Origin: a virus
Length of the DNA stretch: 64,000 nucleotides
IMG/VR virus record: IMGVR_UViG_3300036851_000360
Span: 1 to 64,000 of that record
Direction: 5' to 3' (one strand)
The notes below the pieces were generated by a model that was not told the origin of the DNA, made no database searches, and saw nothing but the letters and a program-made list of their open reading frames with translations. A program made the translations under genes and the position numbers. Shown here piece after piece: positions 35,580 to 62,169 of this stretch (positions are counted from its first letter, which is position 1; each line of letters starts with the position of its first letter).

Positions 35580-38500
35580 GCCCGTTCCCTCACTCGTGCC
35601 TGCTCGTCTGCCATCTCGGGTGCGGCCAGCCACCGGGTTTGCCGTTCGGCCTCTTCCTCCGCCGCCCGCATCTCGTCGGCGCGGTCACGGTCGGTGCGCT
35701 CAAGGAGGGACTCGCGGGCTCGTCTCACCGAGTCCGCCACCGCATCCGCTGCCGGCACTTCCCGCCGGATGCGTGGGTCGTGTTCCGTCGGATCCGCGAT
35801 CGCAACGTCGCGGATGTCCGCCACAGCTGTCTCGAGGGGCTTCCGCGGCACGGGCAGTTCATGGACGTGCTCGCCGACGAGATCTTCCTCGTGGATCGGG
35901 CGGCGTTCATCGTCGGCGACCCGGTCGGCTTCCTCCGCCGCCAACCACTCCGCCATCGTGGTCCGATCCTCTGGGCGGGCCAGGTCAACTTCGCGGCGCG
36001 CCAACTCCGCCTTGGCACGCTCACCCGAATCACGGGTGCCGGCGGTGTGGAGGAACCACGCGGTCCGCTCCTTGTCTGCGACCTCAAGGTTGAGCTTCAA
36101 CTGTTCGAGCTGTGCCGCTTCCTGTTCAGCCTTGACTGCCGCCTCGAGGACCCCCCGCTTCTCGTCGCCTTCGAGGGTTTCGGCGTGCGCCCGCCACAAC
36201 CCGACCTGGTTTCGACGGTCCGCCAACTGCTCGGAGGTGGCCGCGAGTTCGTCCGCGACATAGCGGGGGGCCCACAGCTGTTCCCGTTCCCATGCCGCGG
36301 CCCGGGCGAGAAGCTGCCCGTCGGACTGCATCGCCTCCTCCGGCCCGACATCCGGCAGGCCGAGAGCGTCGTGGGCGGTCGCCCAGATCGCGCGCTTCTC
36401 CGCCAGCCCTGCGGCGGGGGCAGGGCCGAGCGGGTCATGCTCGTCCGTGTACTCGGCGCCCTCCCGGGACGCGGCTGCCCAACCGGCGCGGGACTCCCAC
36501 ACCGCCCGCCGTAGCGGATCCTCCGGGACCGGCCCCAGTGTCTCCATCGCCCAGGGTGGACGTTCCTCCGCCACCCTTGCGCCGAGCTCGTGACGCCGCT
36601 CATCAGCCTTGTCGGCTTGTTTCTCAAGCCAACCGCGCCACACGTCGCTCACCCCGGCGGGGATGAGGTCCCGGTAGGAGGTGATCCGCGGGATCTGTTT
36701 CCCGAGGGTGTTGCGGATGCGGGCGTGCAGCACCTGCGCTGCTCTCTCAGCGCCAGCCAGGGACTTCCCTTCCAGCGCGTCGCGGAGCACGCCCTCGGGG
36801 TTGTGGCCAGAAACCTCCGCGTTGCGGAGGAGTCGCTCCACAGCGCTCATCGCCTGGTCCGCGGCCAGCGCCTCACGTTGTTCAGGGGTGATGACGCCTT
36901 CCGCGGCGAGCCGATCCAGGCGGGTTGAGGTCGCGCCGGCGGTGGCCTCGTTGATCCCAACGAGTAGCCGGTCGACGTTGCGGAAGGTGGACTGCTCGTC
37001 CTCGATGGCCTGCTCGCGCTGGGCGATCGCCCCCCGTTCCTCCTCGGCGTTCTTGAATGAGTCCGCGAGGACAGCCTTTGCGGTGCGACCCTCGACCTCC
37101 TGCGCTTCCCCGACGGGCGCGTCGGAGGCCAGCTGCTTGGTGGTGACCCACGCTGTGTTCGACTCCCGGCCGCGTGTCATCCCCACGTAGGTGCCGGTGA
37201 GGTCGTGCCCGGTGTCGACGGTGCGGCCCTGTGCGGCGTGCAGGGTGGAGGCGTAGGCGAGGGACAGGTGCTTCTCGACGTAGCTGGCGCTCAGAGTTAG
37301 CGCGACCCCCTTGCTGGTCTCCACCCGCAGTGCCCCGTCGGCGAGGAAATGAGTCACCCGGTACGTCTGCCGGTTGATCAACGGGAGAGGGTTACGGCCG
37401 AGGCGCCAACTGTTCTTTCGTGCCTGCACAAGGTCGCCGATCCCGGCGATGTTGCCGTCTTTGCCGAGACGTACACCGCGTTCGGACACCTTCCCCAACC
37501 GGACGAGCTCGGCCCGGAGCTGGGCGTTCACCTGGGCGGCCTGGTCGTTGCTGCGGACCAACAGCAGGGACTTTTTCCCTGCGAGGGTGTCCGCCAGCCA
37601 CGCCTGCCCTGCCTTGTGCTCGGCCTGTTCGGTTGTGCCGCAGCCACGCAACCGGCCGTGCTTGTCGTACTCGTCGAGGGCTGCGACATTCCCTTCACGC
37701 CACAGCAGCGACGCCGTGCGTTCCCACTCCTCCTGGAACCGCCACACCTGCGTCAGCTCGTAGGACCGTGCCGTGCGACGGAGATCAGCGAACACCCCAC
37801 CGGCCTCGACTGAACGCATCTGCCGTGCGTCGCCGACTGGCAGGAGTTTCGCCCCAACCTCCTCGCACCGCTGCACCAGATCGGCCATGTCCCGGGTGGA
37901 TGCCATCCCCGCCTCGTCCACCACGACCAGGTCACCGGCTCGCAGTTGTAGGGAGTCGTCGTTCTCGACCGCGAGGCGCCACCGGTCGAAGTTGAACGAC
38001 TCCACCCCCTCTTCAGCCATGACGTCGGCGGCGTTCTGCGAGGCGGCCAGCCCGAACGTGCGGCGGCCATGTTCGGCCCACGCGCCCGCGATCAGCCCGA
38101 CAGTTGTCGACTTGCCAGTACCGGCGGCAGCGGAGATGGTTTCCACGTAGGCGCCGGAGGTGAGGACGCCGCAGATCGCGGCCTCCTTGTCCGCCCCCAA
38201 CGTCTCGTCCGCCGCCTCGTTGTAGCGGCGGATGAACGCATCCACCTGCGCCTGGCTCAGCTTCGCCGCCCCAGTCCTGACAGCTGCCTGCTCAGCGATC
38301 CGCTCCTCGGCGATCTGCCCGACTGTGGCGAACTGGGCGGAACCGGGACGCTGGAACGCGGACAGATCACCGGCCAACCGGAACTCGGCTGGCAGGCCGT
38401 CAACCGACTCTTTGGCGACAACGACCTTGGCTTCGGCGAGGGCCTTGTCGGCGAGCCGCTCCAACATCGCGGGGATGTCACCGGCGGGGACACCGAGGTT

Positions 38501-39799
38501 CGCGGGGAGCGCACCCGAGATCGCGAAGATCAGATCGGAGCGGGTCCACACGTGCTCGTTTTTCCCGACTTCCCACAACGCCGCCTTGATCACCTGAGAG
38601 GGGGAGACTTCATCCGCCCGCCCTTGCCCCTTCAGCGCGAGGACGTCGTGGGCGACCTGCTCCAACCCGCCCACCATCTTCGTGCGGGCCTCACGCTCCC
38701 ACCGGTCCAACCGCTGTTCCGCGGTCTCCCCGGTGTGCGACTTCCCCTTCCTCGTCAACAGGGTGGCGCGTTCGGCGATGTACTGCCGCTCCAACGGCGA
38801 CACGGACCGGCCGTGCTGCTCCTCGTACTCGCGGATCAACTGCTCCGTCTTCGCGGTGACCGCGTGGGACCGCTTCGAAAACAGGTCCATGAGCTGCTGC
38901 GGCACACCCGCGATCTCGCGGATGATCCCGTCCTTGCGGGCGTCGCGGGTCACAAACCGGACCCCCAACGTGCGGGCGAGCTCGGCCTCCATGACCCGCT
39001 CACCCACCGCGGCGGCAGCCCACTTGTGCAGCGTCAACGCCGCCCCGTCGACCCGGCCCCACTTCCCATCAGCGCGTTCGTGAACGTTCAGGATCGCCTG
39101 GTGCACATGCAGCTGTGGATCCCGCTCCCGGGAGTCGTGCTGCAGGAACTGGGCGACGATGAACCCCTTCTGCTCCATCCAGCGACCCGCACCGGAGGAG
39201 TGGTTCCCAACCCGGGCGTACGCGTTCGCCTCGAGGTAGTCGACACTTGCCGACGCGCCAGCCATCGCTGCGCCCTCAACCGCGCTGAGCATGGCCCGCC
39301 ACGATGCCGCCTCCTGATGACGTCCTGCACCAGCGGCGACGTTCATCGCCCGCTCGAAGGCGACCGCCAGGAGGGTCACGGACTTCGGGACCGAGAAGGT
39401 GGCATCCCAGAACGCCACCGCCTGCCGCGACTCCCGCTCCGCCGCAGCCTGAAGTTCGGCTCGCCGCTCCGGGCCCGCATCGGGCTCCTTCGCGAGCGCC
39501 TCTTTGTAAATCTCGTCCGGTGACCGGTAGCGGCGGTGGGCGGGAGCCAACGCCCGCGCCTCCGCCCACATCTCCCGGTGATGGGTGGCCTCGTCGCGAG
39601 GGTCGAGCAGACGGGCGTAGATCGCCTCCATCAGATCGGAGTTGACCTCGCCCGCCAGCCCGAGAGCCTGGGCGCCCCGCCCATGCCAGCCGCCGGGCGG
39701 TTCACCCGCGGCTACGGCACCCGTGTAGTAGCCCTCCCGCCCGGTCGACACCGGTCCGGTCAGGTACCCCACCGAGTAGCCCTTGGTCACCTTGAACAC
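35576..39799 (-). CDS. traA: MobF relaxase-helicase (TraA/TrwC type)
   Basis: A 1407-residue conjugative relaxase that would nick one strand at oriT, stay bound to the 5' end and unwind it for transfer. The N-terminal TrwC domain has candidate tyrosines (Tyr8, Tyr12, Tyr24, Tyr25), the DATFSVPKSVTLL motif (about 132-144) and a histidine triad (His221 and His231/His233 in DPQLHVHQAI). The C-terminal SF1 helicase has Walker A AAAGTGKS (about 557-564), Walker B LVVVDEA (about 624-630) and late motifs STLHAAQGRTVD and YVGMTRGRESNTAW. Full length and intact. GTG 39799. Linked to a coupling ATPase upstream. Such an enzyme is unexpected in a phage genome. Confidence 0.93.
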   Translation of the reverse strand: MFKVTKGYSVGYLTGPVSTGREGYYTGAVAAGEPPGGWHGRGAQALGLAGEVNSDLMEAIYARLLDPRDEATHHREMWAEARALAPAHRRYRSPDEIYKEALAKEPDAGPERRAELQAAAERESRQAVAFWDATFSVPKSVTLLAVAFERAMNVAAGAGRHQEAASWRAMLSAVEGAAMAGASASVDYLEANAYARVGNHSSGAGRWMEQKGFIVAQFLQHDSRERDPQLHVHQAILNVHERADGKWGRVDGAALTLHKWAAAAVGERVMEAELARTLGVRFVTRDARKDGIIREIAGVPQQLMDLFSKRSHAVTAKTEQLIREYEEQHGRSVSPLERQYIAERATLLTRKGKSHTGETAEQRLDRWEREARTKMVGGLEQVAHDVLALKGQGRADEVSPSQVIKAALWEVGKNEHVWTRSDLIFAISGALPANLGVPAGDIPAMLERLADKALAEAKVVVAKESVDGLPAEFRLAGDLSAFQRPGSAQFATVGQIAEERIAEQAAVRTGAAKLSQAQVDAFIRRYNEAADETLGADKEAAICGVLTSGAYVETISAAAGTGKSTTVGLIAGAWAEHGRRTFGLAASQNAADVMAEEGVESFNFDRWRLAVENDDSLQLRAGDLVVVDEAGMASTRDMADLVQRCEEVGAKLLPVGDARQMRSVEAGGVFADLRRTARSYELTQVWRFQEEWERTASLLWREGNVAALDEYDKHGRLRGCGTTEQAEHKAGQAWLADTLAGKKSLLLVRSNDQAAQVNAQLRAELVRLGKVSERGVRLGKDGNIAGIGDLVQARKNSWRLGRNPLPLINRQTYRVTHFLADGALRVETSKGVALTLSASYVEKHLSLAYASTLHAAQGRTVDTGHDLTGTYVGMTRGRESNTAWVTTKQLASDAPVGEAQEVEGRTAKAVLADSFKNAEEERGAIAQREQAIEDEQSTFRNVDRLLVGINEATAGATSTRLDRLAAEGVITPEQREALAADQAMSAVERLLRNAEVSGHNPEGVLRDALEGKSLAGAERAAQVLHARIRNTLGKQIPRITSYRDLIPAGVSDVWRGWLEKQADKADERRHELGARVAEERPPWAMETLGPVPEDPLRRAVWESRAGWAAASREGAEYTDEHDPLGPAPAAGLAEKRAIWATAHDALGLPDVGPEEAMQSDGQLLARAAAWEREQLWAPRYVADELAATSEQLADRRNQVGLWRAHAETLEGDEKRGVLEAAVKAEQEAAQLEQLKLNLEVADKERTAWFLHTAGTRDSGERAKAELARREVDLARPEDRTTMAEWLAAEEADRVADDERRPIHEEDLVGEHVHELPVPRKPLETAVADIRDVAIADPTEHDPRIRREVPAADAVADSVRRARESLLERTDRDRADEMRAAEEEAERQTRWLAAPEMADEQARVRERA

Positions 39800-40689: not shown

Positions 40690-41370
40690 CTATGGCCTGC
40701 GGAGCTTGAGTTCTCGGTGCTTGCGTGCGTCCTCGAGCTGCTCGTCGGTAGGCGCCGGCGGGAGGCCGGTGGTGCTCCACGCTTCGGCGACCGCATGGAT
40801 GTGGCCGGCAAGCGGCGCCGCGAGGGGCTCCTTAGCTGCCTGACCTGCTGGTTTGTGGTCCTGAAGGCTGCACGACCCGAGGTGTTTGCGGACCCGCTCG
40901 ACCAGGCGCGGCATGGACTGGTCGTGCCACATGCCCTGCGCTACCGGGTCGTCCTGCGACCCGTACGCCTTCGCGTGGTACCGGCGCAGCCACAGGAGCT
41001 CTTCGATCAGCCAGGGGTGCCAGGCCCAGCAGGAGGGCAGTTCGTTCCCGGGATACCGCAGGTAGACGGCGTTCAGCCACGTCTCGAGGTCGCGCAGACG
41101 CTCGTCAAGTTTCTCGGGGTCTTCACCGACCTGCAGTAGCCACGCCCGTCCGTCGTCCTTCCCTCCTGGCGCGAGGAGGGCGACGAGGCCTTCCTCGAGG
41201 TGCCGGAAGGCCTTCCACATCCCCCGGAGTTCGTCGTCCCACCCGCGTGCGTCGCCCAGTTCCTGCAGCCGGCGGGAGTGCCGGTCGAGCTCCCGCCCGA
41301 TCGTCTGGGCGTCGAGCGGCTGGGTGGGCTCCTCGGGTGGGGGTCCTGCGGGAGGGTCAGTGGGTGGCAT
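40690..41370 (-). CDS. hypothetical transfer-associated protein
   Basis: A 226-residue protein following the coupling ATPase, overlapping it by 14 nt. The Pro-rich N-terminus is followed by a helical domain (IGRELDRHSRRLQELGDARG) and a Trp-rich core (CWAWHPWLIEELLWLRRYHA) with features like the DUF4913-type proteins of actinobacterial conjugative elements. Role unknown; operon context suggests DNA transfer. Confidence 0.7.
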   Translation of the reverse strand: MPPTDPPAGPPPEEPTQPLDAQTIGRELDRHSRRLQELGDARGWDDELRGMWKAFRHLEEGLVALLAPGGKDDGRAWLLQVGEDPEKLDERLRDLETWLNAVYLRYPGNELPSCWAWHPWLIEELLWLRRYHAKAYGSQDDPVAQGMWHDQSMPRLVERVRKHLGSCSLQDHKPAGQAAKEPLAAPLAGHIHAVAEAWSTTGLPPAPTDEQLEDARKHRELKLRRP

Positions 41371-43201
41371 TGGTCAGCTCCCGGTCGGGTGCGGCACCCA
41401 CGGGTACAGGTGTCTGTGGGTGGGTGGGTGCTGGGAGGTCGATGGGTGCGGGTGCCGGGAGCGCAACGGGGTGGGTGACCAGGTGGGTGGGAGATGGCCG
41501 GGAGAACACCCGGCGGGCACCCACACCCACGAGGCGGGTGAGAACCGATGGGTGTCGCTTCCACACGGGGATGACCCGCCCGATCACGATGGGCATGTCG
41601 CCCGTGTAGACGATGGCCTTCCACTTCGGGAGGCTCGCCAGTTGTCCCACGGACAGCACAGGCGCTTTGCGCACGGACGTGGAGGTGATGTCGCCGTCGC
41701 CGTTGCGGGTGACGACGGTTTCGTCGCGGTCGCCGGCGAGGTCGGAGAAGGCCTTCAGGCCACCGACGGCTTTGTTGCCGCCGATGTACATGAGCACGTT
41801 GGAGTTGTTGATGAGCCGCTCGGCTCCGGCCTCGCCGTACTTCGCGATCATGTCGGCGTAGGACTGGAACACCGGCATCAGCTGGATGCCGGAGCCGCCG
41901 AAGTCTCCGGACCAGTCGGGCAGCGGGACGGGGCAGACCCGGGCGGCCTCGTCGAGCGGGAACCGGATCGGCGGGTCGAGCCGCCCCCGGCACGCCCCCT
42001 CAAACGACGGCAGCGCTGCGAGACGGCGGGCTTCGCGGGCGATATACCCGGTCAGCGCTTGCAGCAGCGGAGCAGTGTTCGCCTCATGCCTGCCCAACAA
42101 ATACACGGTGCCCTTGCCGCGGATCAGTTCGGCAACGTTGAACGGGGCGGCCCCCTTGGTGGAGGCGGCCGCCGCCGGCGAGTGGAGCCACTGCAGTGCG
42201 GGCAAGATCCCGGTGGTGATGCTCGAGCGGGTGGTCGGGTTCAGGCCGATGAACTGATCGACGGCGGGCCGGAACGACGGGACCGGGGACGCCTGGAGAA
42301 GTTCATGTACCTCATCGCCGATGTGGTCGGGATTCGCGACCCAGCGGAGGATGTCGTGGCAGTCCCGGGTGCCCTCGGACAGGCCGGCGGCGTGGAGGAA
42401 CGCGGCGAACACCCGCCGGGACTGGGCATCCCAGTCCGCCGAGTCTCCGCGTACACCCTCCCGCTCGGGGATCATGTCTGCGGCCCGGTCGATCGCCACC
42501 GTGGGGTCGTCGCACCCGTGGACGGGGTCGAAGCTGATCGTGGAGTCGACTTCACCCACCCAGGCCGGGTTGTACACCCAGATGGGACCCGTCTTCGCCC
42601 GCAGCTCCCGGGTCTGGTCGTAGAGGTCGGTGCGGGTGGAGGTGGTGACTACGGCCCCGGGGGCGTCGATGACGGGGGTTCCGAGGAGGGCGGTCTTGCC
42701 TCGGCGGGGGCCCGCGACGATGAGTACGACGTCTTCGGCCGAAGCCCACACCCGCATCCCGGCCGCCCGACACAGCAGCACACCCAGCTCCCGGGTGGGT
42801 GTGCGCCACCGCTTCACCCACCCGGCATCCCGTAGGTGCGGGCGGACAGCGCGGGCCTTGCGGTGCATCGCCCACCAGGAGGTGCCGCGGGCGACCTGTA
42901 AGGGGGTGGCGACGCCCGAGCGCCGGCGGGCCTTCTCGCCCCACCGGGTGACGGTGCGGGCCGTCCCGCCGCGCCACCACACCACCCCCGCCACGCAGGC
43001 GACGCCTGCAATGGTGAGGACACCGGCGAGGGTGAGAGCCCCATGGCTCATGTACAGCCACGCGGAGACGCCGACACCGCCGCCGATGCCGACCTTGCGG
43101 GAACTGCCGGCCAGACCGCGCTTGAGCTTGCGGATCCAGTCGCCCACGAAGATGGCGGCGGCCACACCTGCGGTGACGAGGACGACGAACTCGGCGGTCA
43201 C
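41357..43201 (-). CDS. type IV coupling protein (VirD4/TraG-like ATPase)
   Basis: A 614-residue inner-membrane ATPase that would bring the relaxase-DNA complex to the transfer channel. Two N-terminal membrane segments (about residues 2-21 and 44-75) precede the motor domain with Walker A AGPRRGKTALLG (164-170) and Walker B RFPLDEAARV (415-420), plus TGILPALQWL and NNSNVLMYIGG motifs usual in TraG/VirD4 proteins. It is not an FtsK/TraB-type translocase. The C-terminal 60 residues are Pro/Thr-rich. GTG 43201 overlaps the upstream stop (GTGA); the longer ORF to 43282 is rejected. Confidence 0.9.
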   Translation of the reverse strand: MTAEFVVLVTAGVAAAIFVGDWIRKLKRGLAGSSRKVGIGGGVGVSAWLYMSHGALTLAGVLTIAGVACVAGVVWWRGGTARTVTRWGEKARRRSGVATPLQVARGTSWWAMHRKARAVRPHLRDAGWVKRWRTPTRELGVLLCRAAGMRVWASAEDVVLIVAGPRRGKTALLGTPVIDAPGAVVTTSTRTDLYDQTRELRAKTGPIWVYNPAWVGEVDSTISFDPVHGCDDPTVAIDRAADMIPEREGVRGDSADWDAQSRRVFAAFLHAAGLSEGTRDCHDILRWVANPDHIGDEVHELLQASPVPSFRPAVDQFIGLNPTTRSSITTGILPALQWLHSPAAAASTKGAAPFNVAELIRGKGTVYLLGRHEANTAPLLQALTGYIAREARRLAALPSFEGACRGRLDPPIRFPLDEAARVCPVPLPDWSGDFGGSGIQLMPVFQSYADMIAKYGEAGAERLINNSNVLMYIGGNKAVGGLKAFSDLAGDRDETVVTRNGDGDITSTSVRKAPVLSVGQLASLPKWKAIVYTGDMPIVIGRVIPVWKRHPSVLTRLVGVGARRVFSRPSPTHLVTHPVALPAPAPIDLPAPTHPQTPVPVGAAPDRELTNATH

Positions 43202-43452
43202 GACCGCGCCCCTGCCCGCTGGCTGTAGGTGTGGCGCAACTCCAGGGACGTCCCGAACGCGCAGATGAGCGCGAAGATCCATGACTGCGGTGTCGCGTAG
43301 ACGAGGACCGCACCCAGCGCGAGCGTGGACGCCCCCATGAACCCGGCGCTGAGGGCGCCTGCCGGGATGCTGATCCAGCTACGGGTGGTCACCCGGGAGA
43401 TGACGGAGAGGCCGACCGACAGAGCGAAGTACGAGAGCAGAAGGCTGATCAT
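43198..43452 (-). CDS. small membrane protein in transfer operon
   Basis: An 84-residue protein with hydrophobic helices at about residues 2-20, 27-50 and 53-68 (LLLSYFALSVGLSVI; GALSAGFMGASTLALGAVL; SWIFALICAFGTSL) and a basic tail. Overlaps both neighbours by 4 nt. Possibly part of a membrane complex with the coupling protein. Confidence 0.7.
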   Translation of the reverse strand: MISLLLSYFALSVGLSVISRVTTRSWISIPAGALSAGFMGASTLALGAVLVYATPQSWIFALICAFGTSLELRHTYSQRAGARS

Positions 43453-49251: not shown

Positions 49252-49365
49252 CGGGAGACCTTCTTTCACTCGCCTGGCTGTGTGGTGGGAGGGCCGTCCG
49301 GGGTCTGGGGTCAGCCTGTCGGGTCGGCACGTGCCGACCCTTCTTCGGCCATGCGGACGTGCACG

Positions 49366-49818
49366 TTACTCAGTTCCGCCACCGTCGGCGACCCTTCGAT
49401 CACTGCTGGTTGGTGGGGTGTGGGGTTCTTCGATGGGTGCATCCTCGGTGTACCAGCGGAAGTAGCCGGTTTGTCCGGGGTGGATGGGTTCGTCGGCTTC
49501 TCGTCGGGAGGCTAGGCGGCGGGCTAGTTCGGCGACGAGTTCGAGGTCGTGGGCTTCGCCGAGCCTAGGCCCGAGGTCGGCGGGGGCGATGTCGGGTGTG
49601 GGCTCGGCTGTTTCGACTGTTTTGGCTGGTTCGTCGGTGAGGGAGTCGTGGAGGTACTCCTCGAGCCGTTCGATGTTGGGGGAGCGGTGGACCTGGCCGC
49701 GCTCGATGCGGGCGACGGTCTTGGGGTCGATTTGGAGGATCTCGGCGAGTTCGCGGCGGCTGAGTCGCCGGCGTTCGCGTGCTCGTCGGAGGTGTTCGCC
49801 TCTGATGGTGTCGTTCAC
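49366..49818 (-). CDS. XRE-family immunity repressor
   Basis: A 150-residue protein with an N-terminal helix-turn-helix (LRRARERRRLSRRELAEILQ then IDPKTVARIERGQ) and an acidic C-terminal half (HDLELVAELARRLASRREAD) without a recognisable S24 peptidase. Divergent from a Cro-like gene, so it is the likely lysogeny repressor. GTG 49818 is preferred over ATG 49881 because an 18-bp sequence shared with the early promoters lies just upstream (49832-49849) and would otherwise be coding. Not an autocleaving repressor by sequence. Confidence 0.82.
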   Translation of the reverse strand: MNDTIRGEHLRRARERRRLSRRELAEILQIDPKTVARIERGQVHRSPNIERLEEYLHDSLTDEPAKTVETAEPTPDIAPADLGPRLGEAHDLELVAELARRLASRREADEPIHPGQTGYFRWYTEDAPIEEPHTPPTSSDRRVADGGGTE

Positions 49819-49831
49819 GGCCCCGGAGTCT

Positions 49832-49859
49832 AGGGCACAATAGGACACACGCGGTGTCC
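49832..49859. promoter_or_regulatory. operator O1 of the immunity region
   Basis: Contains agggcacaataggacaca (49832-49849), identical to the sequence at the early promoter, followed by an inverted GTGTCC that makes a GGACAC/GTGTCC dyad at 49843-49859. It sits directly upstream of the repressor start, so it probably mediates autoregulation. No TTGACG is found 17 bp before the CACAAT here. Confidence 0.65.
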
Positions 49860-49963
49860 CTACCAGGTTGTTTTCAGACATGCCTAGGCTCCCCGTCTGT
49901 CCCCGTCACAGCTCTGAGAGTGACTGATCAGGGCAGAAAAGGCCAGTCCTAGCAATGACAGCA

Positions 49964-50000
49964 TTGACGGGCGGGACACGTAAGGGCACAATAGGACACA
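49964..50000 (+). promoter_or_regulatory. early promoter PR with operator O2, leaderless start
   Basis: TTGACG (49964-49969), 17-bp spacer, CACAAT (49987-49992), then 7 nt to ATG 50000. The transcript would begin at or next to the ATG, a leaderless message. Two GGACAC half-sites 20 bp apart (49974 and 49994) flank the -10 box, one inside the spacer and one over the start, so a bound repressor would block the promoter. Confidence 0.75.
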
Positions 50001-50263
50001 TGTACAGCCGACTGATCGACGCCGAGGCGTTCCTCGCCCGCTGCGCCGCGGCCGACTTGACCCTGAAGGAGCTCGCCGAGCGGAGCCTTCTCTCCGAAAG
50101 CATGGTCAAGAAGGTCTGCTACGGCCGCCGGCAACTCGCCGACCACGCCGCCCACCGGGTCGCGAAGGTCCTCGGGTGTCATCCCAACGACTTCTCCGTC
50201 CCCAAGCCGGTCGACCGCCCGCCAGCGCCGAACCCTGACCTGTCCGACTGCGAAGCGGCATGA
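50000..50263 (+). CDS. Cro-like helix-turn-helix protein
   Basis: An 87-residue XRE-type DNA-binding protein (DLTLKELAERSLLSESMVKK, then VCYGRRQLADHAAHRVAKVL). First gene of the rightward early operon, divergent from the repressor. ATG 50000 abuts the promoter; the longer ORF from 49955 is rejected because it would start inside the promoter. Likely the lytic-side regulator of the switch. Confidence 0.8.
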   Translation: MYSRLIDAEAFLARCAAADLTLKELAERSLLSESMVKKVCYGRRQLADHAAHRVAKVLGCHPNDFSVPKPVDRPPAPNPDLSDCEAA

Positions 50264-50418
50264 CCTACGACGAGGCCCTCGCCATCCTCGGCCCCGAGCT
50301 GGTTGCCCGCATGAACGAGCGCCTCGGCCCGCCCGCTCCGCTGTCCGAGGAGCAGATCACGCTGCTCGTCGGCATCCTCGGCGACCTCCCAGACGAACCG
50401 TCTGCCACCGCCGCCTGA
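50260..50418 (+). CDS. small early protein
   Basis: A 52-residue ORF coupled by ATGA to the Cro-like gene: MTYDEALAILGPELVARMNE ... LSEEQITLLVGILGDLPDEP. Helical and acidic. Codon use matches the neighbours. No function known. Confidence 0.7.
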   Translation: MTYDEALAILGPELVARMNERLGPPAPLSEEQITLLVGILGDLPDEPSATAA

Positions 50419-50436
50419 ACCCCGCAACACGACGCA

Positions 50437-50464
50437 GCCCCCCACCGCCGTAACGGTGGAGGGC
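50437..50464 (+). terminator. hairpin after first early genes
   Basis: Stem-loop GCCC-CCACCG / CGGTGG-GGGC with loop ccgtaa, 18 nt after the stop at 50418. No T-run follows. It may act as a weak terminator or processing site between the switch genes and the next early unit. Confidence 0.45.
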
Positions 50465-50497
50465 TAGTCGAACGACCACAAAGGAAGGCTGCCCCAA

Positions 50498-50683
50498 GTG
50501 ATCGTCGATCCCACGATACCTGCCCGACCGGATGATCAGGCTGGCCGGCATCGAGTTCGCCGTGGCGCCACGTGCCCCGACACGGGTCGCATCGTCGGTA
50601 AGACGTTGCCCCAGTTCAGGGCGAAGGCGATCATCCGCCGCAACGAGGGCGACCTTGAGCCGCGCACCCGGCGGGCACGATGA
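50498..50683 (+). CDS. small basic early protein
   Basis: A 61-residue Arg-rich protein (RHRVRRGATCPDTGRIVGKT ... KAIIRRNEGDLEPRTRRAR). GGAAGG lies before GTG 50498 and the stop overlaps the next ATG. Possibly nucleic-acid binding; no family recognised. Confidence 0.6.
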   Translation: MIVDPTIPARPDDQAGRHRVRRGATCPDTGRIVGKTLPQFRAKAIIRRNEGDLEPRTRRAR

Positions 50684-50886
50684 GCGGCGCGGGCCACAGC
50701 GCATGCGCTGACTACGTCCGCCGCTTCTTCGACGAGCAGGGCATCGAGGTGACCATCGCGACCGTCCCACCACTGGTCGCCGGGACGTACACCGAGCCAG
50801 GCATGACCTGCCCTCACGGCACGACCTACTGGTTCGAGCCGACTGGTGACCAGATCGCGGCGTGGGCTCGGGACGGTGTCGCATGA
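50680..50886 (+). CDS. small early protein
   Basis: A 68-residue protein (SACADYVRRFFDEQGIEVTI ... YTEPGMTCPHGTTYWFEPTG) with a CPHGTTYWFEPT pattern common to short actinophage proteins. ATGA junctions on both sides. Function unknown. Confidence 0.65.
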   Translation: MSGAGHSACADYVRRFFDEQGIEVTIATVPPLVAGTYTEPGMTCPHGTTYWFEPTGDQIAAWARDGVA

Positions 50887-51068
50887 GGGCTGGCGGCTGC
50901 TATGTCGAGACGTTCGTCGAGGACGACGGCGGATGGGGCTGGCAGTGCTTCGACTGCGAGACCGAAGGTGCCGGGTTCGCCAACCTCGGGGCAGCTGAGG
51001 CGGCTGGTGAGCACCACCGCGTCGAGGTCGCCACCCAGGAGCTCATCGAGGAGGGGGAACTGCCGTGA
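50883..51068 (+). CDS. small early Cys-containing protein
   Basis: A 61-residue protein (MRAGGCYVETFVEDDGGWGW then QCFDCETEGAGF) with a CFDC pair, possibly zinc-binding. Overlaps its neighbours by 4 nt. Function unknown. Confidence 0.65.
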   Translation: MRAGGCYVETFVEDDGGWGWQCFDCETEGAGFANLGAAEAAGEHHRVEVATQELIEEGELP

Positions 51069-51361
51069 CCACCAAACGCCGCAACGCGCCGATGCCTGCC
51101 CGGCGGATGCGTGAGGCCGTCACTCTGGCTGCTGAGCTGGAGTTGCGTGTGGAGAACCAGCGTCTATGGGAGCAGTTCGTGGCGTCGACCGCCGACGTGG
51201 ACTGGCTGCGTGAGGAGCGCGACGAGTGGCGTGCTGCCGCGCACGAGGCTGAGGGTGATGTGGCGGCGCTCCGTCAGATCCTTTCGGTGCAGAGCGACAC
51301 GATCGCTGCCCTGCGCGAGCAGCTCGGCACGGCGCACGAGGACGGAGGGCGAGACCGATGA
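51065..51361 (+). CDS. coiled-coil early protein
   Basis: A 98-residue protein, basic at the N-terminus (TTKRRNAPMPARRMREAVTL) and then a continuous coiled coil to the end. Start and stop overlap the neighbouring genes. Function unknown. Confidence 0.65.
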   Translation: MTTKRRNAPMPARRMREAVTLAAELELRVENQRLWEQFVASTADVDWLREERDEWRAAAHEAEGDVAALRQILSVQSDTIAALREQLGTAHEDGGRDR

Positions 51362-51537
51362 GCGACGAGACTTCAGTCATCTACCACGTCATCTCGTACG
51401 CCGACTGGGCGAACCTGGGGTGGACGGACTGCTGTCACCGCCTGGTGGCCGAGCTTCCGAAGGACGACGTGTGCGTGCCGCCGGGGGACCGCGAGCCGGG
51501 TGCGATGCGCTGCGACGGAGGGCGAGACCGATGAGCG
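51341..51537 (+). repeat. 24-bp direct repeats at gene junctions
   Basis: Identical 24-bp sequences at 51341-51364 and 51514-51537 (beginning GACGGAGGGCGAGACC) each span the last codons of one gene and the ATGAGC start of the next. Their distance equals one small gene, so that gene could be gained or lost cleanly by recombination. Confidence 0.8.
51358..51534 (+). CDS. small early protein between direct repeats
   Basis: A 58-residue ORF (MSDETSVIYHVISYADWANL ... CCHRLVAELPKDDVCVPPGD) with several Cys residues. It lies exactly between the two 24-bp repeats and overlaps the neighbouring genes by 4 nt. Function unknown; its cassette-like boundaries are notable. Confidence 0.65.
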   Translation: MSDETSVIYHVISYADWANLGWTDCCHRLVAELPKDDVCVPPGDREPGAMRCDGGRDR

Positions 51538-51824
51538 TGCACCGACCCGAGGTGGTCGCCCAGTGCATCGCACAGGTGCGGGCCTGGCAGGGCAGTTCGA
51601 ACGAGGGGCTGGCACCGACCCGGACGCAGTGCGGCGTGCTCGCCGACGAGGTCGAGCGGCAGCGCGCCCCGATCGACTGGCCGCCCCGGTTCCGCGCCGC
51701 CGCGGACGCAGCCAGGGCAGCGGGCTACGTGGACGCCGCCGAGCACTTCCGCGCGCTATCCAACAACGTGGCACTGGACGTGGTCGAGGCCATCGGGCGC
51801 GCGCTGCGCGGAGAGACGTCGTGA
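51531..51824 (+). CDS. small helical early protein
   Basis: A 97-residue helical protein (SVHRPEVVAQCIAQVRAWQG ... AAAADAARAAGY type helix near residue 65, AEHFRALSNNVALDVVEAIG at the end). Overlaps its neighbours by 4 nt. No family recognised. Confidence 0.65.
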   Translation: MSVHRPEVVAQCIAQVRAWQGSSNEGLAPTRTQCGVLADEVERQRAPIDWPPRFRAAADAARAAGYVDAAEHFRALSNNVALDVVEAIGRALRGETS

Positions 51825-52006
51825 CCGCCGTCGCTGTCCTTGCCGCCGCTGCGCTGGCTGTGGCTGGCCCGGATCTGGTGACGATCGCGGGGGTGCTGCG
51901 CGGACGGGTTGGTCATCGGGTGCCGCGTGTGGGGTGGCTGGTCGGTGTCGTTGTCGCCACTCACACCGCTCTGGTTGTTGCGGGTCTGTCGAGGGGGATG
52001 TCGTGA
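51821..52006 (+). CDS. small membrane protein, early region
   Basis: A 61-residue protein with two hydrophobic segments (AVAVLAAAALAVAGPDLVTI and VGWLVGVVVATHTALVVAGL). GTGA overlap with the previous gene and TGATG with the next membrane gene. May act on the host membrane early in infection, for example in exclusion. Confidence 0.65.
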   Translation: MTAVAVLAAAALAVAGPDLVTIAGVLRGRVGHRVPRVGWLVGVVVATHTALVVAGLSRGMS

Positions 52007-52176
52007 TGGACATGTTGTGGGCGGTTTACGGGTTCGGTTGGGTGCCGTGGGTGTTGGTCGCCTGGGTTGCGGTGGCTGTGGTGGTGGGCCTGGTTGTGGG
52101 GCGGATTGTGCGCCGGCGGGACAAGCAGGTGCCGCCGACGGTGCCTCCGTCTTCGGGGGCCGGCGGGCTGCCGTGA
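52006..52176 (+). CDS. small single-pass membrane protein, early region
   Basis: A 56-residue protein with one membrane helix (WVPWVLVAWVAVAVVVGLVV), a basic stop-transfer (RIVRRRDK) and a Pro/Ser tail. Overlaps the previous small membrane gene by 1 nt, suggesting a pair. Last gene before a terminator. Confidence 0.65.
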   Translation: MDMLWAVYGFGWVPWVLVAWVAVAVVVGLVVGRIVRRRDKQVPPTVPPSSGAGGLP

Positions 52177-52200
52177 CGGGGCTGTAGCTGGGACGATGGG

Positions 52201-52242
52201 GCGCCGGGCAACCTTGAGGGGTGGCCCGGCGTCTTCTTTGTT
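52201..52242 (+). terminator. intrinsic terminator of early operon 1
   Basis: Stem GCGCCGGGC (52201-52209) with GCCCGGCG (52224-52231), extended inward by ACC/GGT, followed by TCTTCTTTGTT. It ends the rightward operon just before the second early promoter. Confidence 0.8.
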
Positions 52243-52269
52243 GGGTGTCTTAGTCTGTCCCTTCCACCC

Positions 52270-52306
52270 TTGACGGGTAGGACACTTTAGGGCACAATGG
52301 GACACA
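52270..52306 (+). promoter_or_regulatory. second early promoter with operator O3, leaderless start
   Basis: Same architecture as the promoter at 49964: TTGACG (52270-52275), 17-bp spacer, CACAAT (52293-52298), 7 nt, ATG 52306. GGACAC half-sites start at 52280 and 52300, again 20 bp apart. The 18-bp core differs from the other two copies at one base. The matching design implies control by the same repressor. Confidence 0.75.
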
Positions 52307-52611
52307 TGGCTGCCCCACTACCCAGCACCACCCCGGAGCCCCAGCTCCGCCCCCCTGAGATCCCCGCCCCTGCCCCGCTGTGCGCGATGTGGCAGGGCCG
52401 CTGCGGTAACCCCGCCCACCTCATCGTCCACACCACGAAGCGAATCGGATCCCACGACGAGCCCATGTCGTGGCTGGTGTGCGACGCCACCCCCTGCTGG
52501 GACGCCGCACGCCGACACGCCGAGACGTACGGGCTCCGGTACGTGGACTCCCGCCGGATCACTCCCGCCGACATCGAAGCCATCACGAGGCGCGAGGCGG
52601 TGGCGGCATGA
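52306..52611 (+). CDS. first gene of early operon 2
   Basis: A 101-residue protein: Pro-rich N-terminus, then CAMWQGRCGNPAHLIVHTTK ... WLVCDATPCWDAARRHAETY with four Cys and several His, probably zinc-binding. Start ATG 52306 is leaderless by analogy with the gene at 50000; ATG 52297 would overlap the -10 box. Function unknown. Confidence 0.65.
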   Translation: MAAPLPSTTPEPQLRPPEIPAPAPLCAMWQGRCGNPAHLIVHTTKRIGSHDEPMSWLVCDATPCWDAARRHAETYGLRYVDSRRITPADIEAITRREAVAA

Positions 52612-53087
52612 ACACCACTGCACTTCCGGGTCGAACCGACGAGCTACTCGACGCGCAGACCACCGCCATCGCCTTCATCCGCGAGCACGGCCTCTACGCC
52701 GACAGCATCGACCTTCGCCTGGGTTCCACCACCGCCCGCCGGTGGAACCGGGAGACGCAGGACTTCGACCGTCCCTGCATGCCAATCAGGGCCACGGTCT
52801 GCATGTTCCGCCACCCGGAGGAGTTCCTCCGCTGGGCTGATGCGCTCCCGCCCGCGGACGTCCTCGTCAAGCGCCGCGACGGGGACACCTGCCTGAATCT
52901 GTACAGCGACCACGCCAACATCACCTGGGAGATCGCGTCGGGCATCAGCCGCCCTGAGACGGGGCCGCATCTGCCGGGGATCCCTGCGCCGTGGACGCGC
53001 AACCGGCGCCGTGCACTCACCGATCACGGCCGGATCTCCGCCGAACAGCTCCGCACCGTCCTGGCGACGCTGGGTGGTGCGTCATGA
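52608..53087 (+). CDS. hypothetical early protein
   Basis: A 159-residue globular protein (AQTTAIAFIREHGLYADSID, then LRLGSTTARRWNRETQDF ... VLVKRRDGDTCLNLYSDHAN). Coupled to the previous gene by ATGA. No catalytic motif recognised. Confidence 0.65.
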   Translation: MNTTALPGRTDELLDAQTTAIAFIREHGLYADSIDLRLGSTTARRWNRETQDFDRPCMPIRATVCMFRHPEEFLRWADALPPADVLVKRRDGDTCLNLYSDHANITWEIASGISRPETGPHLPGIPAPWTRNRRRALTDHGRISAEQLRTVLATLGGAS

Positions 53088-55098: not shown

Positions 55099-55488
55099 AT
55101 GTCCGACTGCTGCGGTGGGTGCGGTTCGTCGATGGTCCCCCGATCGTCAGGGGAATCCCGCGTCGACACACACGAGGGCCGCGGCCTGTGCCCTCCCTGC
55201 TACCGCCAAGCCCACTACACGGGCCGGTTGGACGAGTACCCGCGGCGGAGCTGGTCCCGGGAAGACGTGATGTCCGAGTGGGATCTGCTCCGGTCGGAGG
55301 GCTACACGCGTCGCGTCGCCGCTGACCGGTTGGGCATGAGGTGGGAGACGTTCGACCGCGCCTACTGGCGGGCCAGGGCAGCGGGTGATCCGCGGGCGGT
55401 GCCGGAGCAGGTGGCCAGCGACGCCGGCATCTGGACCATCCCCCCGACCCTGCGGCCACACGATCACACCATCGGGAGGGTGAAGTGA
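55099..55488 (+). CDS. zinc-finger/HTH-like early protein
   Basis: A 129-residue protein with an N-terminal Cys cluster (MSDCCGGCGSSM) and CPPCYR further on, a zinc-finger layout, and a C-terminal helix-turn-helix-like region (LRSEGYTRRVAADRLGMRWE then TFDRAYWRARAAG). It overlaps the WhiB gene by 4 nt. Probably a DNA-binding regulator. GTG 55096 and ATG 55099 are both possible starts. Confidence 0.7.
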   Translation: MSDCCGGCGSSMVPRSSGESRVDTHEGRGLCPPCYRQAHYTGRLDEYPRRSWSREDVMSEWDLLRSEGYTRRVAADRLGMRWETFDRAYWRARAAGDPRAVPEQVASDAGIWTIPPTLRPHDHTIGRVK

Positions 55489-55769
55489 ACTGGCGATCAC
55501 AGGCGGCGTGTCTCGACGCCGACCCGGAGTTGTTCGCCGAGCAGAACAGCCACTCGACCGCCGACTGGACGCAGCTTCAGCGCACAGCGGATACGTACTG
55601 CCGTTTCTGCCCTTCCCTCCTTGAGTGCCGAGCTGAGGGGGACGCGAACCAGGAACGCGGCATCTGGGGCGGCCGATACCGCCGTGAACGGCACGGCAAG
55701 GTCAAGATGCGCACCCTCGTGGTCGTCGACACCCGCAAGCCGCGTATGCCGGCGAGGGCAGCGTCATGA
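55485..55769 (+). CDS. WhiB-family iron-sulfur regulator
   Basis: A 94-residue WhiB-like protein, a family limited to actinobacteria and their phages. Four Fe-S cysteines are present: Cys9 (QAACLDADPELF), the CxxC pair Cys39/Cys42 (YCRFC) and Cys48, followed by the GIWGG turn (59-63) and a basic C-terminus. Phage WhiB proteins can interfere with host WhiB partners of sigma factors. Coupled by overlap to a LuxR-type regulator. Confidence 0.9.
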   Translation: MNWRSQAACLDADPELFAEQNSHSTADWTQLQRTADTYCRFCPSLLECRAEGDANQERGIWGGRYRRERHGKVKMRTLVVVDTRKPRMPARAAS

Positions 55770-58288: not shown

Positions 58289-58879
58289 ATGACGCCGAGG
58301 AAGTCCGGCATCCCCACTGAGTATTCCGGGACCACGTTCCGGTCCCGTCTCGAGGCCCGGTGGGCCCGATTTTTCGACGGCATCGGCTGGAACTGGGAGT
58401 ACGAACCGTTCGACGCGGACGGCTACATTCCCGATTTCCTCATCCTCGGCCGCTCCTCTCTCCTCATCGAGATCAAGCCCTACGGCGACCTGAGGATGCT
58501 TGTCGAGGAGGCTGATCGGGTCCGGCCCCTCGTTGGGCTCGGCTGGTCCGGGCACTTCGCGGTGTTCGGTGTCAACCCACTCCTCGACCTGAACGGCTCG
58601 ATGGGGCGTCCTGGACCAGGGGTCTATGTGACCGGCGGATCCGACTGGGGATCACCCGCAAGCGAGTCCGCGCTCGGTTGGACCGACTGTGGCTATGTCA
58701 CGAACTACGGCAGCCACGGGCAGGAATGCGGTGCCATGTCCGTGTTCCACCAGACGGACAGCTACCAGGCGATCCCATGCGGCCACGCAGATGGGGACCA
58801 CCACCTCGGCGAACCTCAACTCAGCTACATCAACACCATCTGGACCGCCGGACGCGACGCGACGAAGTGGTCGGCGTGA
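58289..58879 (+). CDS. PD-(D/E)XK endonuclease
   Basis: A 196-residue nuclease with a TnsA/VSR-like core: FRSRLEARWARFFDGIGWNW, then YIPDFLIL ... LLIEIKPYG (Asp, then Glu-x-Lys). The C-terminal half has Cys/His residues (GHGQEC-like stretch, CGHADGDHH) that may bind metal. It overlaps the primase-helicase start (GTGA). Probably a DNA-end or flap nuclease in replication or recombination. Confidence 0.8.
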   Translation: MTPRKSGIPTEYSGTTFRSRLEARWARFFDGIGWNWEYEPFDADGYIPDFLILGRSSLLIEIKPYGDLRMLVEEADRVRPLVGLGWSGHFAVFGVNPLLDLNGSMGRPGPGVYVTGGSDWGSPASESALGWTDCGYVTNYGSHGQECGAMSVFHQTDSYQAIPCGHADGDHHLGEPQLSYINTIWTAGRDATKWSA

Positions 58880-61416
58880 CGAGCGCAGACACCACCTACG
58901 ACGGGGCCCTCGCCTGGTGGGACGCGGGCTGCAGCGTCGTCCGCGTCGCCCTCGACGGCACCAAGCGCCCCGACGGCGTCTGGAAGCAGTACCAGCGCGA
59001 ACGCGCCGACCGCGACACCATCCACCGATGGTTCACCGCCGGCCACTCCGGCGTCGGCATCGTCTGCGGCGCCGTGTCCGGCAACCTCGAAATGCTTGAG
59101 CTCGAGGGCCGCGCCATCACCGAGGGCGTCCTGCAGCAGATGGTCGCCGCGTGTGACCAGCTCGGCGTCGGCGACCTGTGGCGCACCCTCACCACCACCT
59201 GCGCAGAAGCCAGCCCCTCCGGCGGCCTCCACGTCTTCTACCGCGTCCCCGACGGCGTCGCCGGCAACACCAAGCTCGCGCAACGCCTCGCCCACGACGA
59301 CGAGTACACCGCCGAGGAACACGAACTCGCAGCCAAGGGCAAGACCATCGTCCGCGGCCTCATCGAAACCCGCGGCGAAGGCGGCTTCGTCGTCGTCGCC
59401 CCCAGCCACAGCACCGTCCACCCCACCGGCAAGCCCTACACCTTCATCGCCGGCAACCCCGCCACGATCCCCACCATCACCGGGGAACAGCGCGACCTCC
59501 TGCACATCGCCGCCCGAACCTGCGACCAGCTCCCGGCACCCGCAGCCATCCCCGAACCCGTCATCCTCGAGCAGCGCCGCACCGACGGAGGCACCAGCCC
59601 CGGCGACGACTACAACACCCGCGGCTCCTGGGCCGAACTGCTCACCGAACACGGATGGACCCGAGTGTGGGGCGACCACACCCGCACCTACTGGCGCCGC
59701 CCCGGCAAGAACTTCGGCATCTCCGCCGTCACCGGCGGCACCGAAGGTGACTACTTCTACTCCTGGACAACCTCCAGCGTGCTCCCCGCCGAAGAGGCCA
59801 TGTCGAAGTGGCGGGTGTACGCCGTCCTCGAACACGCAGGCGACTTCCACGCCGCAGCCAAGACACTCAAGAGCCGCGGCTACGGGCAGGCCCCACCGCC
59901 GCCCACCCGGCCCGTACTCACCACCGTCCCCATGGGCAGCAGCACCCACACCAACGGCAGCAGCGCCCTCGCCCCGCAGGTTGCAGAACAGGCCTCAAAT
60001 AATATTCCGGCCGACGCCACCCTCGAACGTTCCGACGACGGCAACGCCCTCGCCCTCGTCGACCAGTACGGCACCCGCATCCGGTACTGCCCCGAACGCG
60101 GCCGCTGGCTGCACTGGACCGGGAACCGGTGGGAATGGTGCCCCTCCGGCGGCGGTGTCGTCCGTGAGTACGCCAAGCACATCGCCCGCAGCCTCCCCGA
60201 CGACGACAACGCGGCGATGAAGCACAAGCAGCGCAGCCTCGGCGCCATAGGCACCACGGCCATGCTCATCCAGGCCGCCACCGACCAACGTGTCGTCGTC
60301 GCACTCGACGAGCTCGATGCCCGCCCCTACGAGCTCAACACCCCCGTCGGGATCGTCGACCTTCGCACCGGCGACACCAGCCCTGCCGACCCCACCCACC
60401 TGCACACCCGCATCACTAAAGCCGCACCCGACGCGGACGCAGACCCCAGCAGGTGGCTCACCTTCCTCGCAGACACCTTCGAAGGCCACCAAGAGCTGCC
60501 CGCCTACATGCAGCGCCTCGTCGGCTACTCCGTCACCGGTGTCGTCCGCGACCACGTGCTGCCGTTCCTGTTCGGCGCCGGCGCCAACGGCAAGGGCGTG
60601 TTCCTCGAGACCATGCGTGCCGTCCTCGGCGACTACGCCACGACCGCGCCGTCCGGGTTCCTGATGGCGAAAAACTACGCCGGCCACGAAACCGAGATCG
60701 CCCGTCTCGCCGGAGCGCGCATGGTCGTCTGCTCCGAAATCAACGAAGGCGACCGGTTCGACGAAGCCAAGGTCAAGCAGCTCACCGGCGGAGACGCGCT
60801 GACCGCACGGTTCATGCGGCAAGACCACTTCACGTTCACCCCGACCCACAAGCTGTGGCTGATGGGCAACCACCAGCCCTCCGTCACCTCCGGCGGCCAC
60901 TCGTTCTGGCGGCGGCTGCGGATCGTGCCATTCGTCAACACTGTGCCCGAGGAGAAGCGGGTCGACGACCTGCAGGGAATCCTCGCCACCCAGCACGGCG
61001 GCGCCATCCTGCACTGGATCGTCACCGGCGCTGCGGCCTACTTCACCGACGGTCTCCAGGAACCCGAGTCGGTGCGCGCCGCAACCGAGGAATACGCCAA
61101 CGAGCAGGACACGGTGGCTCGGTTCGTCGCGGACCGATGCCACCTCGGGCCCCGCGAACATCTGCGGATGAAGGTCGGGACCTTGCGGGCGGCCTACGAG
61201 GCATGGTGCTCCGACGAGGGCGACCCAGCGGTGAAACCACGCACGTTCGGCCTGACCCTGCGCACCCGGTTCGGAGTGGAGGCGACCCGGACGAATCGGG
61301 ACCGCTTCTACACCGGCATCGCCCTGCTCGCGGAGCGTGACGAAGAGGAGGGTGACCGGCCCGACGATGCGTCACCCGCACCTGAGAGGCGGGACCTGGC
61401 GTGGGGCCTCGGGTGA
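58876..61416 (+). CDS. bifunctional primase-polymerase / SF3 helicase
   Basis: The 846-residue replication protein. The N-terminal prim-pol domain (about 1-190) shows GVGIVCGAVSGNLEMLELEG, where the usual Asp-x-Asp is Glu-x-Glu, and SPSGGLHVFYR. The C-terminal half is a D5_N/P4-type superfamily 3 helicase with Walker A FGAGANGKGVF (about 564-574), MVVCSEINEG, and KLWLMGNHQP sensor. Together these prime and unwind DNA at an origin, probably the repeat region just downstream. GTG 58876 overlaps the nuclease stop. Likely sufficient, with host polymerase, for phage or plasmid-like replication. Confidence 0.9.
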   Translation: MTSADTTYDGALAWWDAGCSVVRVALDGTKRPDGVWKQYQRERADRDTIHRWFTAGHSGVGIVCGAVSGNLEMLELEGRAITEGVLQQMVAACDQLGVGDLWRTLTTTCAEASPSGGLHVFYRVPDGVAGNTKLAQRLAHDDEYTAEEHELAAKGKTIVRGLIETRGEGGFVVVAPSHSTVHPTGKPYTFIAGNPATIPTITGEQRDLLHIAARTCDQLPAPAAIPEPVILEQRRTDGGTSPGDDYNTRGSWAELLTEHGWTRVWGDHTRTYWRRPGKNFGISAVTGGTEGDYFYSWTTSSVLPAEEAMSKWRVYAVLEHAGDFHAAAKTLKSRGYGQAPPPPTRPVLTTVPMGSSTHTNGSSALAPQVAEQASNNIPADATLERSDDGNALALVDQYGTRIRYCPERGRWLHWTGNRWEWCPSGGGVVREYAKHIARSLPDDDNAAMKHKQRSLGAIGTTAMLIQAATDQRVVVALDELDARPYELNTPVGIVDLRTGDTSPADPTHLHTRITKAAPDADADPSRWLTFLADTFEGHQELPAYMQRLVGYSVTGVVRDHVLPFLFGAGANGKGVFLETMRAVLGDYATTAPSGFLMAKNYAGHETEIARLAGARMVVCSEINEGDRFDEAKVKQLTGGDALTARFMRQDHFTFTPTHKLWLMGNHQPSVTSGGHSFWRRLRIVPFVNTVPEEKRVDDLQGILATQHGGAILHWIVTGAAAYFTDGLQEPESVRAATEEYANEQDTVARFVADRCHLGPREHLRMKVGTLRAAYEAWCSDEGDPAVKPRTFGLTLRTRFGVEATRTNRDRFYTGIALLAERDEEEGDRPDDASPAPERRDLAWGLG

Positions 61417-61433
61417 CGGATCAGGCGCTTCAA

Positions 61434-61714
61434 TGCGTCACCCCTCGGGGTGACAGAGGTGACGCATCGTTTCAAGATCACGCCGTCGCTTCATGGAGTG
61501 ATCTACGAATCATCCGTCACCAGCGTCATCGAACAGACTGCCCACAGGCCCGGGTGACGCAAGTGACGCAACTTCTGACTTATCAGAGCCGTAGGAATTT
61601 CGGTGACACAGGTGACGCATCGTTTCAAGATCACCCCTCGCGCATGCGCGCAAGGACCCTGATAAGGGAAGTTGCGTCACCTGTGTCACCCCGTCACCGA
61701 GACGAGGTGACACA
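61434..61714. other. candidate replication origin (iteron-like repeats)
   Basis: GTGACGCA or its complement occurs at 61434, 61459, 61554, 61563, 61612 and 61673, and GTGACACA at 61603, 61682 and 61707. A 33-bp direct repeat with one mismatch lies at 61449-61481 and 61602-61634. A larger inverted repeat pairs 61553-61586 with 61659-61690. Between its arms lie a locally A/T-richer stretch and the palindrome CGCGCATGCGCG. It contains no gene and directly follows the primase-helicase, the usual origin position. Confidence 0.75.
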
Positions 61715-61716
61715 CA

Positions 61717-62169
61717 GTGGTCGCTAACTCGCGACACCTCGTCACCACCACCCCACGACGAACCACCTGCCACCGATGCAAACGCATCGTCCTCGAAGGC
61801 ACCGAGATGGGCGCCCCCTACTGCGTCGACGCCATCCCCCTCAACCTCCCCGGCGAACTCGATGCGCGCCTCAACGGCCGCAACACCTACCGAATCCTCG
61901 CCGGCCGGATCGCCCTCCGCGAACCCGACGACATCGCCGCCGACACCCGCAAAGGACGCCCCCCCGTCTGCGCCACACACAGCTGCGCGCCCATCAACCC
62001 GGCGCACATCGACCCCAACCACGTCGCCACCTTCGCCACCTTGATCGCCGAGACACCCAAACAGACACCAGACGAGACAAACGAGCAACACACCATGTTC
62101 GTCCTCAGCGGCGAGCTCCGCGGAACACGCCTCATCGCAGTCACCGACACCGACCGCCCACCCTTTTAA
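61717..62169 (+). CDS. Cys-containing hypothetical protein
   Basis: A 150-residue protein with an N-terminal zinc-like pair ([14 protein letters not shown]) and later CATHSC, then a Thr/Asp-rich stretch and a C-terminal strand region. GTG 61717 starts at the edge of the repeat region. Function unknown; the place suggests a link to replication. Confidence 0.65.

Follow-up and report, generated by a model that had tools for sequence, protein, structure and literature searches.

The switch region of the virus record IMGVR_UViG_3300036851_000360 (IMG/VR) carries three arrays of a short half-site, two of which overlap near-identical candidate early promoters, with the third lying beside the gene of a putative repressor. 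We analyzed positions 1 to 64,000 of this 72,180-base record, hereafter the window. The best explanation of the whole, which we regard as reasonably probable, is a lysis-lysogeny immunity region in which the XRE-type repressor Rep, the Cro-like protein (Cro) or both read the three arrays and in which the early genes have leaderless starts. Like CI/Cro-type switches, the region combines divergent helix-turn-helix (HTH) repressor and Cro-like genes with repeated operators that overlap the early promoters. In these respects it is an immunity switch of a familiar kind; what is less usual is the direct-repeat (tandem) form of its operator. Most phage repressors studied bind palindromes. From its primase kin, its WhiB-like gene and its G+C content of 68%, we infer that the record belongs to a temperate phage of an actinobacterium.

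Three arrays of half-sites beside the switch genes

The 18-mer AGGGCACAATAGGACACA is found exactly at 49832 and 49983 and with one mismatch at 52289, confirming the positions given in the original prediction, which was made from this DNA alone. With up to three mismatches allowed, these were the only matches within the window, and 100 shuffles gave none. The 14-base core of the 18-mer (at most one mismatch) likewise has three matches in the entire record and none in a backwards control. The smallest repeat unit is the half-site GGRCAC, with a period of 10 bp. It occurs 66 times on each strand of the whole record; same-strand pairs exactly 10 bp apart number five, all of which lie within the three sites. 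At the candidate promoters of cro (P-cro) and of a second early operon (P3), three half-sites follow one another head to tail at 10-bp spacing (49974, 49984 and 49994; 52280, 52290 and 52300). Site 1 (O-rep; 49833-49859, plus strand) comprises two direct copies, GGGCAC at 49833 and GGACAC at 49843, and an inverted GGACAC at 49854, 11 bp beyond. Thus, each site consists of three half-sites about one helical turn apart. The earlier description of GGACAC half-sites 20 bp apart at the two promoters was right as to the spacing, with these pairs flanking CACAAT as direct repeats about two turns apart around the -10 box. However, it was incomplete in that a GGGCAC sits exactly midway, so that the unit is a set of three half-sites recurring every 10 bp. 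The best dyads in P-cro and P3 are weak and unlike each other (6 and 7 of 9), leaving the direct-repeat geometry as the distinctive point.

Further copies, including stoperator-like sites, had also been considered in the original prediction; none was found beyond these three in the 72,180 bases of the record, and a stoperator-like system was rejected. Pairs of the form GGRCAC-N4-GGRCAC with one mismatch had two further occurrences in the record versus three for the backwards control, so that no stoperators were seen. The confinement of the sites to the phage switch genes, with none elsewhere in the record, also bears on whether the arrays are read by a host regulator instead of a phage protein. 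Although that notion gains from neither Rep nor Cro having a homologue among phages for which the binding site is known, it seems very unlikely given this placement.

The genes around the first two sites form a divergent pair of XRE regulators, as originally described. The repressor gene rep (49366-49818, minus strand) matches HTH_3 with an expectation value (E) of 1.7e-9, diverges from cro and adjoins a serine integrase gene. Its longest open reading frame (ORF) runs for 171 residues from ATG 49881, with the HTH at residues 31-76; the 150-residue form named in the prediction corresponds to a start at GTG 49818 and begins shortly before the HTH. On the plus strand, cro (50000-50263; 87 residues, predicted to be leaderless) matches HTH_3 with E 3.9e-6; its product matches HTH_3/XRE families and none of the excisionase families.

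Site 1 probably acts as the operator for a rep promoter with a leaderless start. In minus-strand order, it is followed by TAGACT (49827-49832), a distance of 8 nucleotides (nt) and GTG 49818. TAGACT would serve as the -10 box, with the start codon being our choice, and site 1 would then lie at about -15 to -41 on the minus strand. We favor this reading because a start at ATG 49881 would place site 1 inside the gene. As an early promoter, site 1 was rejected, lying as it does just upstream of this likely leaderless rep start; of the three-site system first proposed, the operators and the two near-identical early promoters fit the sequence. No -35 consensus is present at 17 or 18 bp from TAGACT (the sequence at 17 bp is ACCGCG), so a protein bound at site 1 might either repress rep or aid it. 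The latter would resemble the situation in lambda, where CI helps transcription at PRM.

The inverted pair at 49843 and 49854, found at site 1 only, leaves room for a division of labor in which only Cro, or an excisionase-like early protein, binds the direct repeats, while Rep uses the inverted pair and represses otherwise. The Apl protein of phage 186 lends this some credence: it binds one-turn direct repeats within the switch of its phage and requires a set of three adjacent operators. Nevertheless, XRE HTH families are what the Cro-like protein matches, and site 1 shares the exact 18-mer with P-cro, which favors one shared reader; we accordingly consider a Cro-only arrangement rather unlikely. 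Returning to one regulator for all three arrays, we would suggest only tentatively that an XRE protein lines up in head-to-tail fashion along the three direct half-sites of a promoter, one helix turn apart, as a short array that spans everything from the spacer to the start codon, and that it also occupies the mixed direct and inverted array, the same protein then reading both asymmetric and symmetric sites.

Two near-identical candidate early promoters and their start codons

P-cro with its operator O-cro (49964-50002, plus strand) has TTGACG at 49964-49969, CACAAT at 49987-49992 and ATG at 50000. P3 with O3 (52270-52308, plus strand) repeats this layout with TTGACG at 52270-52275, CACAAT at 52293-52298 and ATG at 52306. 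The predicted configuration of TTGACG, a 17-bp spacer and CACAAT with an ATG 7 nt on is therefore present at both, and a sigma-70-like consensus scan of 49300-52700 (3.4 kb) found these two and no others, against 0.2 expected from shuffles. From the -35 through the ATG, 34 of the 39 bases are identical. All five differences fall within the nine positions outside the -35, half-sites, -10 and ATG (probability under random placement 2.2e-4, the constrained classes having been named after seeing the sequence). Outside the promoter block the likeness stops, with 14 of 60 upstream and 24 of 60 downstream bases in agreement. Because the differences avoid constrained positions and the flanks are unlike, P-cro and P3 look like sites kept alike by function and not like the leftover of a longer duplication. 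The 34/39 identity would also fit a P3 that arose by recent duplication of a promoter and plays no regulatory role, with the 18-mers as the trace of this event. Yet the identity ends at the -35 and the ATG, and the differences all spare the half-sites and promoter elements, making such an origin improbable.

With regard to start codons, we looked for a -10 box 6-8 nt before an ATG or GTG and the lack of a Shine-Dalgarno sequence. CACAAT lies 7 nt from the ATG at both early promoters and TAGACT 8 nt from the GTG of rep, with AGGA before cro as one partial Shine-Dalgarno. The leaderless geometry originally proposed for both early promoters is backed by the sequence, and three other temperate phages have switch genes with the same distance from -10 to start. 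The last half-site touches the ATG at both cro and the P3 gene, which, along with the AGGA, might instead mark the repeats as translation start signals resembling Start Associated Sequences, with the promoters elsewhere. This we find hardly credible, as the copy at 49832 has no plus-strand gene start, the repeat occurs at only two genes, the P3 ATG is preceded by no Shine-Dalgarno match and the -35 is conserved as well.

We return to the arrays as operators, for which the following mechanism may be envisaged. Rep and/or Cro would bind the GGRCAC arrays, with three half-sites per site about one helix turn apart, and the regulator would assemble cooperatively, head to tail, on the direct half-sites. 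At P-cro and P3 these span about -26 to -1 and thus cover the spacer, the -10 and the start point, so that a bound regulator would exclude RNA polymerase. For cro and P3 alike, the A of the ATG would be the first base of the message; if this is true, being leaderless allows the operator to extend right up to the start codon, as no leader has to be spared. The first early operon would end at a terminator-like hairpin (52199-52234, plus strand; -28.8 kcal/mol, z -3.3) that is followed by TCTTCTTT and lies between this operon and P3, and P3 would restart transcription toward the replication genes. A promoter that restarts transcription after such a hairpin and feeds the replication genes would need an operator of its own as a second controlled promoter. 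In this manner, a single repressor could silence both blocks of early genes (cro and the second operon) and set its own gene, rep. Nine half-sites, two promoters that are nearly the same and a single site at rep make a compact system, in which the geometry would lend itself to a clean test.

Neighboring genes and related phages

The first gene of the second early operon (52306-52611, plus strand) encodes a 101-residue protein with no family match, and the early genes downstream of P3 include those for a WhiB-like protein (55485-55769) and a primase-helicase (58678-61416). Directly after the stop codon of the latter, at 61417-61770, GTGAC/GTCAC occurs 13 times in 350 nt versus 1.2 expected, which makes this stretch a candidate replication origin. 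At least five such motifs were also found in 7 of 19 other loci counted (L032, L034, L035, L041, L042, L043 and L050). Inside the first early operon there is a strong hairpin without a T-tract (50430-50470, plus strand; z -5.39). At 51341-51364 and 51514-51537, an exact 24-nt repeat takes in a purine-rich stretch and the ATG of two gene starts, much as a start-associated repeat or a locally duplicated segment would. Farther away, the minus strand encodes a 1407-residue TrwC-type (MobF) relaxase-helicase (35576-39799) and a TraG/TraD-type coupling protein (41357-43282). No TrwC match was found in the 20 records searched (19 with related primases and the IMG/VR locus L011), and these genes may reflect a phage with a mobilization module, joined elements or a mis-assembly.

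Kin of the primase-helicase comprise 21 IMG/VR loci and 1,019 phage records, with the best match in the Arthrobacter phage Eileen (52% identity); the primase of the Arthrobacter phage RootBeer is 51% identical, both over 88% of the query. Both phages have the same gene order as the window, namely, integrase, rep (minus strand), cro (plus strand), excise, Cas4 and primase. A search with the integrase found no relatives in viral contigs. Start geometry was compared at 12 starts in rep or cro position from six temperate phages besides that of the window (the IMG/VR records L042 and L036, and Eileen, Ximenita, Mufasa and GMA4). The divergent XRE pairs examined among the XRE matches were those of L036, L042, L052 (which is Eileen) and L053; L053, a near copy of L052, and RootBeer, also a near copy, were left out of the counts. 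Stretches from DrManhattan and phiMiGM15 were dropped for having no annotated repressor in them. TANNNT stands 6-8 nt before 5 of the 12 starts (cro and rep of L042, cro of L036, and cro and rep of Eileen), a count biased toward this result by our own choice of the start codons of L042, L036 and Eileen rep, with Eileen cro taken as annotated. The background rate is 0.47% of 30,797 ATG/GTG triplets. The geometry is absent from the other seven, L036 rep and six annotated starts; GMA4 orf33 has a full Shine-Dalgarno. From this comparison, leaderless switch genes seem to be a recurrent but not universal feature of temperate actinophages, and this matters for the annotation of start codons, as in the case of Eileen rep. 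There, at 4799-4810, the gene may start at an ATG 9 nt inside the annotated GTG.

An exact pattern (TTGAC, 16-18 bp, [TC]ANNNT, 5-9 nt and the start of an ORF of at least 40 codons) gave a single match in the 21 related loci, in L047, in addition to the two of the window; the others came from the looser reading of divergent XRE pairs. The L047 match, at 2960, is a promoter of the TTGACG-17-TATCGT type that stands 7 nt upstream of an ATG and carries a palindrome within its spacer. Eileen, L036 and L042 are like the window in their divergent XRE pair, in a cro start 6-7 nt after the -10 and in an operator within the promoter. They are unlike it in that their operators contain palindromes, namely, AGTCNNNNGACT (two copies in Eileen), TTGCATGCATGCAA (in L042, where it overlies the -10/start of cro and has a near copy at rep) and CGTTGGGTC-N6-GACCCAACG. 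The palindrome of L036 has 9-bp arms and covers the -10 and the GTG. Both switch genes of L042, rep and cro, have a leaderless look (625-640 and 798-811), with a matching palindrome over each -10/start, a mirror image of the arrangement in the window. Triple half-sites before a start were found in one stretch of the viral contigs (ATG only) and in 18 stretches of the genome contigs (ATG/GTG), several being simple tandem repeats. TTGAC stood at the P-cro position in none of these 19, and the pattern including the -35 was absent from the viral contigs. At 1194-1280 of L011, for which no kinship was seen, three copies of GGACAC spaced by 10 bp precede an ATG, and another two lie close by; this is possibly an independent use of such an array.

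Several points weigh against arrays read by Rep or Cro at leaderless promoters. CACAAT is poor as a -10, with 9 of 12 consensus matches when the -35 is counted, and the AGGA, 3 nt 5' of the cro ATG, could be a weak Shine-Dalgarno. None of the six annotated starts of Ximenita, Mufasa and GMA4 has the leaderless geometry, and all four comparison operators inspected contain palindromes. XRE dimers usually favor palindromes. As far as searched, viral contigs and phages yielded nothing related to Rep, Cro or the P3 protein, and neither did plasmids with Rep and Cro as the only queries, which precludes footprinting by relatives. Single-sequence structure models were poor (mean predicted local distance difference test scores 57 and 53), and a simple terminator scan listed no terminators, the hairpin at 52199-52234 included.

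Comparison with known systems

Phage lambda has a divergent CI/Cro switch (outlined in PMC4557955). The window shares with this type of switch the divergent repressor and Cro genes, tripartite sites and the placement of sites at two early promoters about 2.3 kb apart. It differs in that both early promoters point in the same direction, the half-sites are direct repeats and the early genes are predicted to be leaderless. The repressors of Cluster A mycobacteriophages are described as using more than 20 scattered asymmetric 13-mer stoperators (PMC9283540). Asymmetric sites read in one direction are a point of likeness, whereas the window has three sites and none elsewhere in the record. The Start Associated Sequences of Cluster K phages, which contain a Shine-Dalgarno core and mark many genes (PMC3203893), also stand directly 5' of start codons. 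Here, in contrast, only two genes have the repeat, both have full promoters and P3 shows no Shine-Dalgarno match.

Leaderless starts are ordinary in mycobacteria, where they require no more and no less than an ATG or GTG at the 5' end (PMC4633059), and a leaderless phage transcript has been predicted for gene 90 of Adephagia (PMC11373665). Hence, leaderlessness by itself is not new. A literature search did not find head-to-tail or helical-turn phage operators, although its coverage was partial and it says little.

The closest parallels are thus in operator geometry. In the case of phage P2, a paper on the C repressor (PMC4752584) gives as its site two 8-bp direct repeats that flank the -10 of the early promoter Pe, 22 bp center to center. 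Besides C, the paper names just three proteins of then known structure that bind direct repeats. Both P2 C and Rep are HTH repressors of temperate phages, and the outer GGACAC pair of the window comparably flanks CACAAT 20 bp apart. However, a third half-site lies midway here, and the array recurs at the second operon and at rep. A phmmer search against PDB gave three weak matches to HTH proteins; P2 C was not named in any of them, and sequence kinship to it was not seen there. Apl of phage 186 is reported to act in the switch region at direct repeats that follow each other at every helix turn, with three adjacent sites needed (PMC7498355). Whereas Apl is an excisionase and the Cro-like protein of the window matches XRE families, the two systems have in common one-turn direct repeats, grouped in threes, within the switch region.

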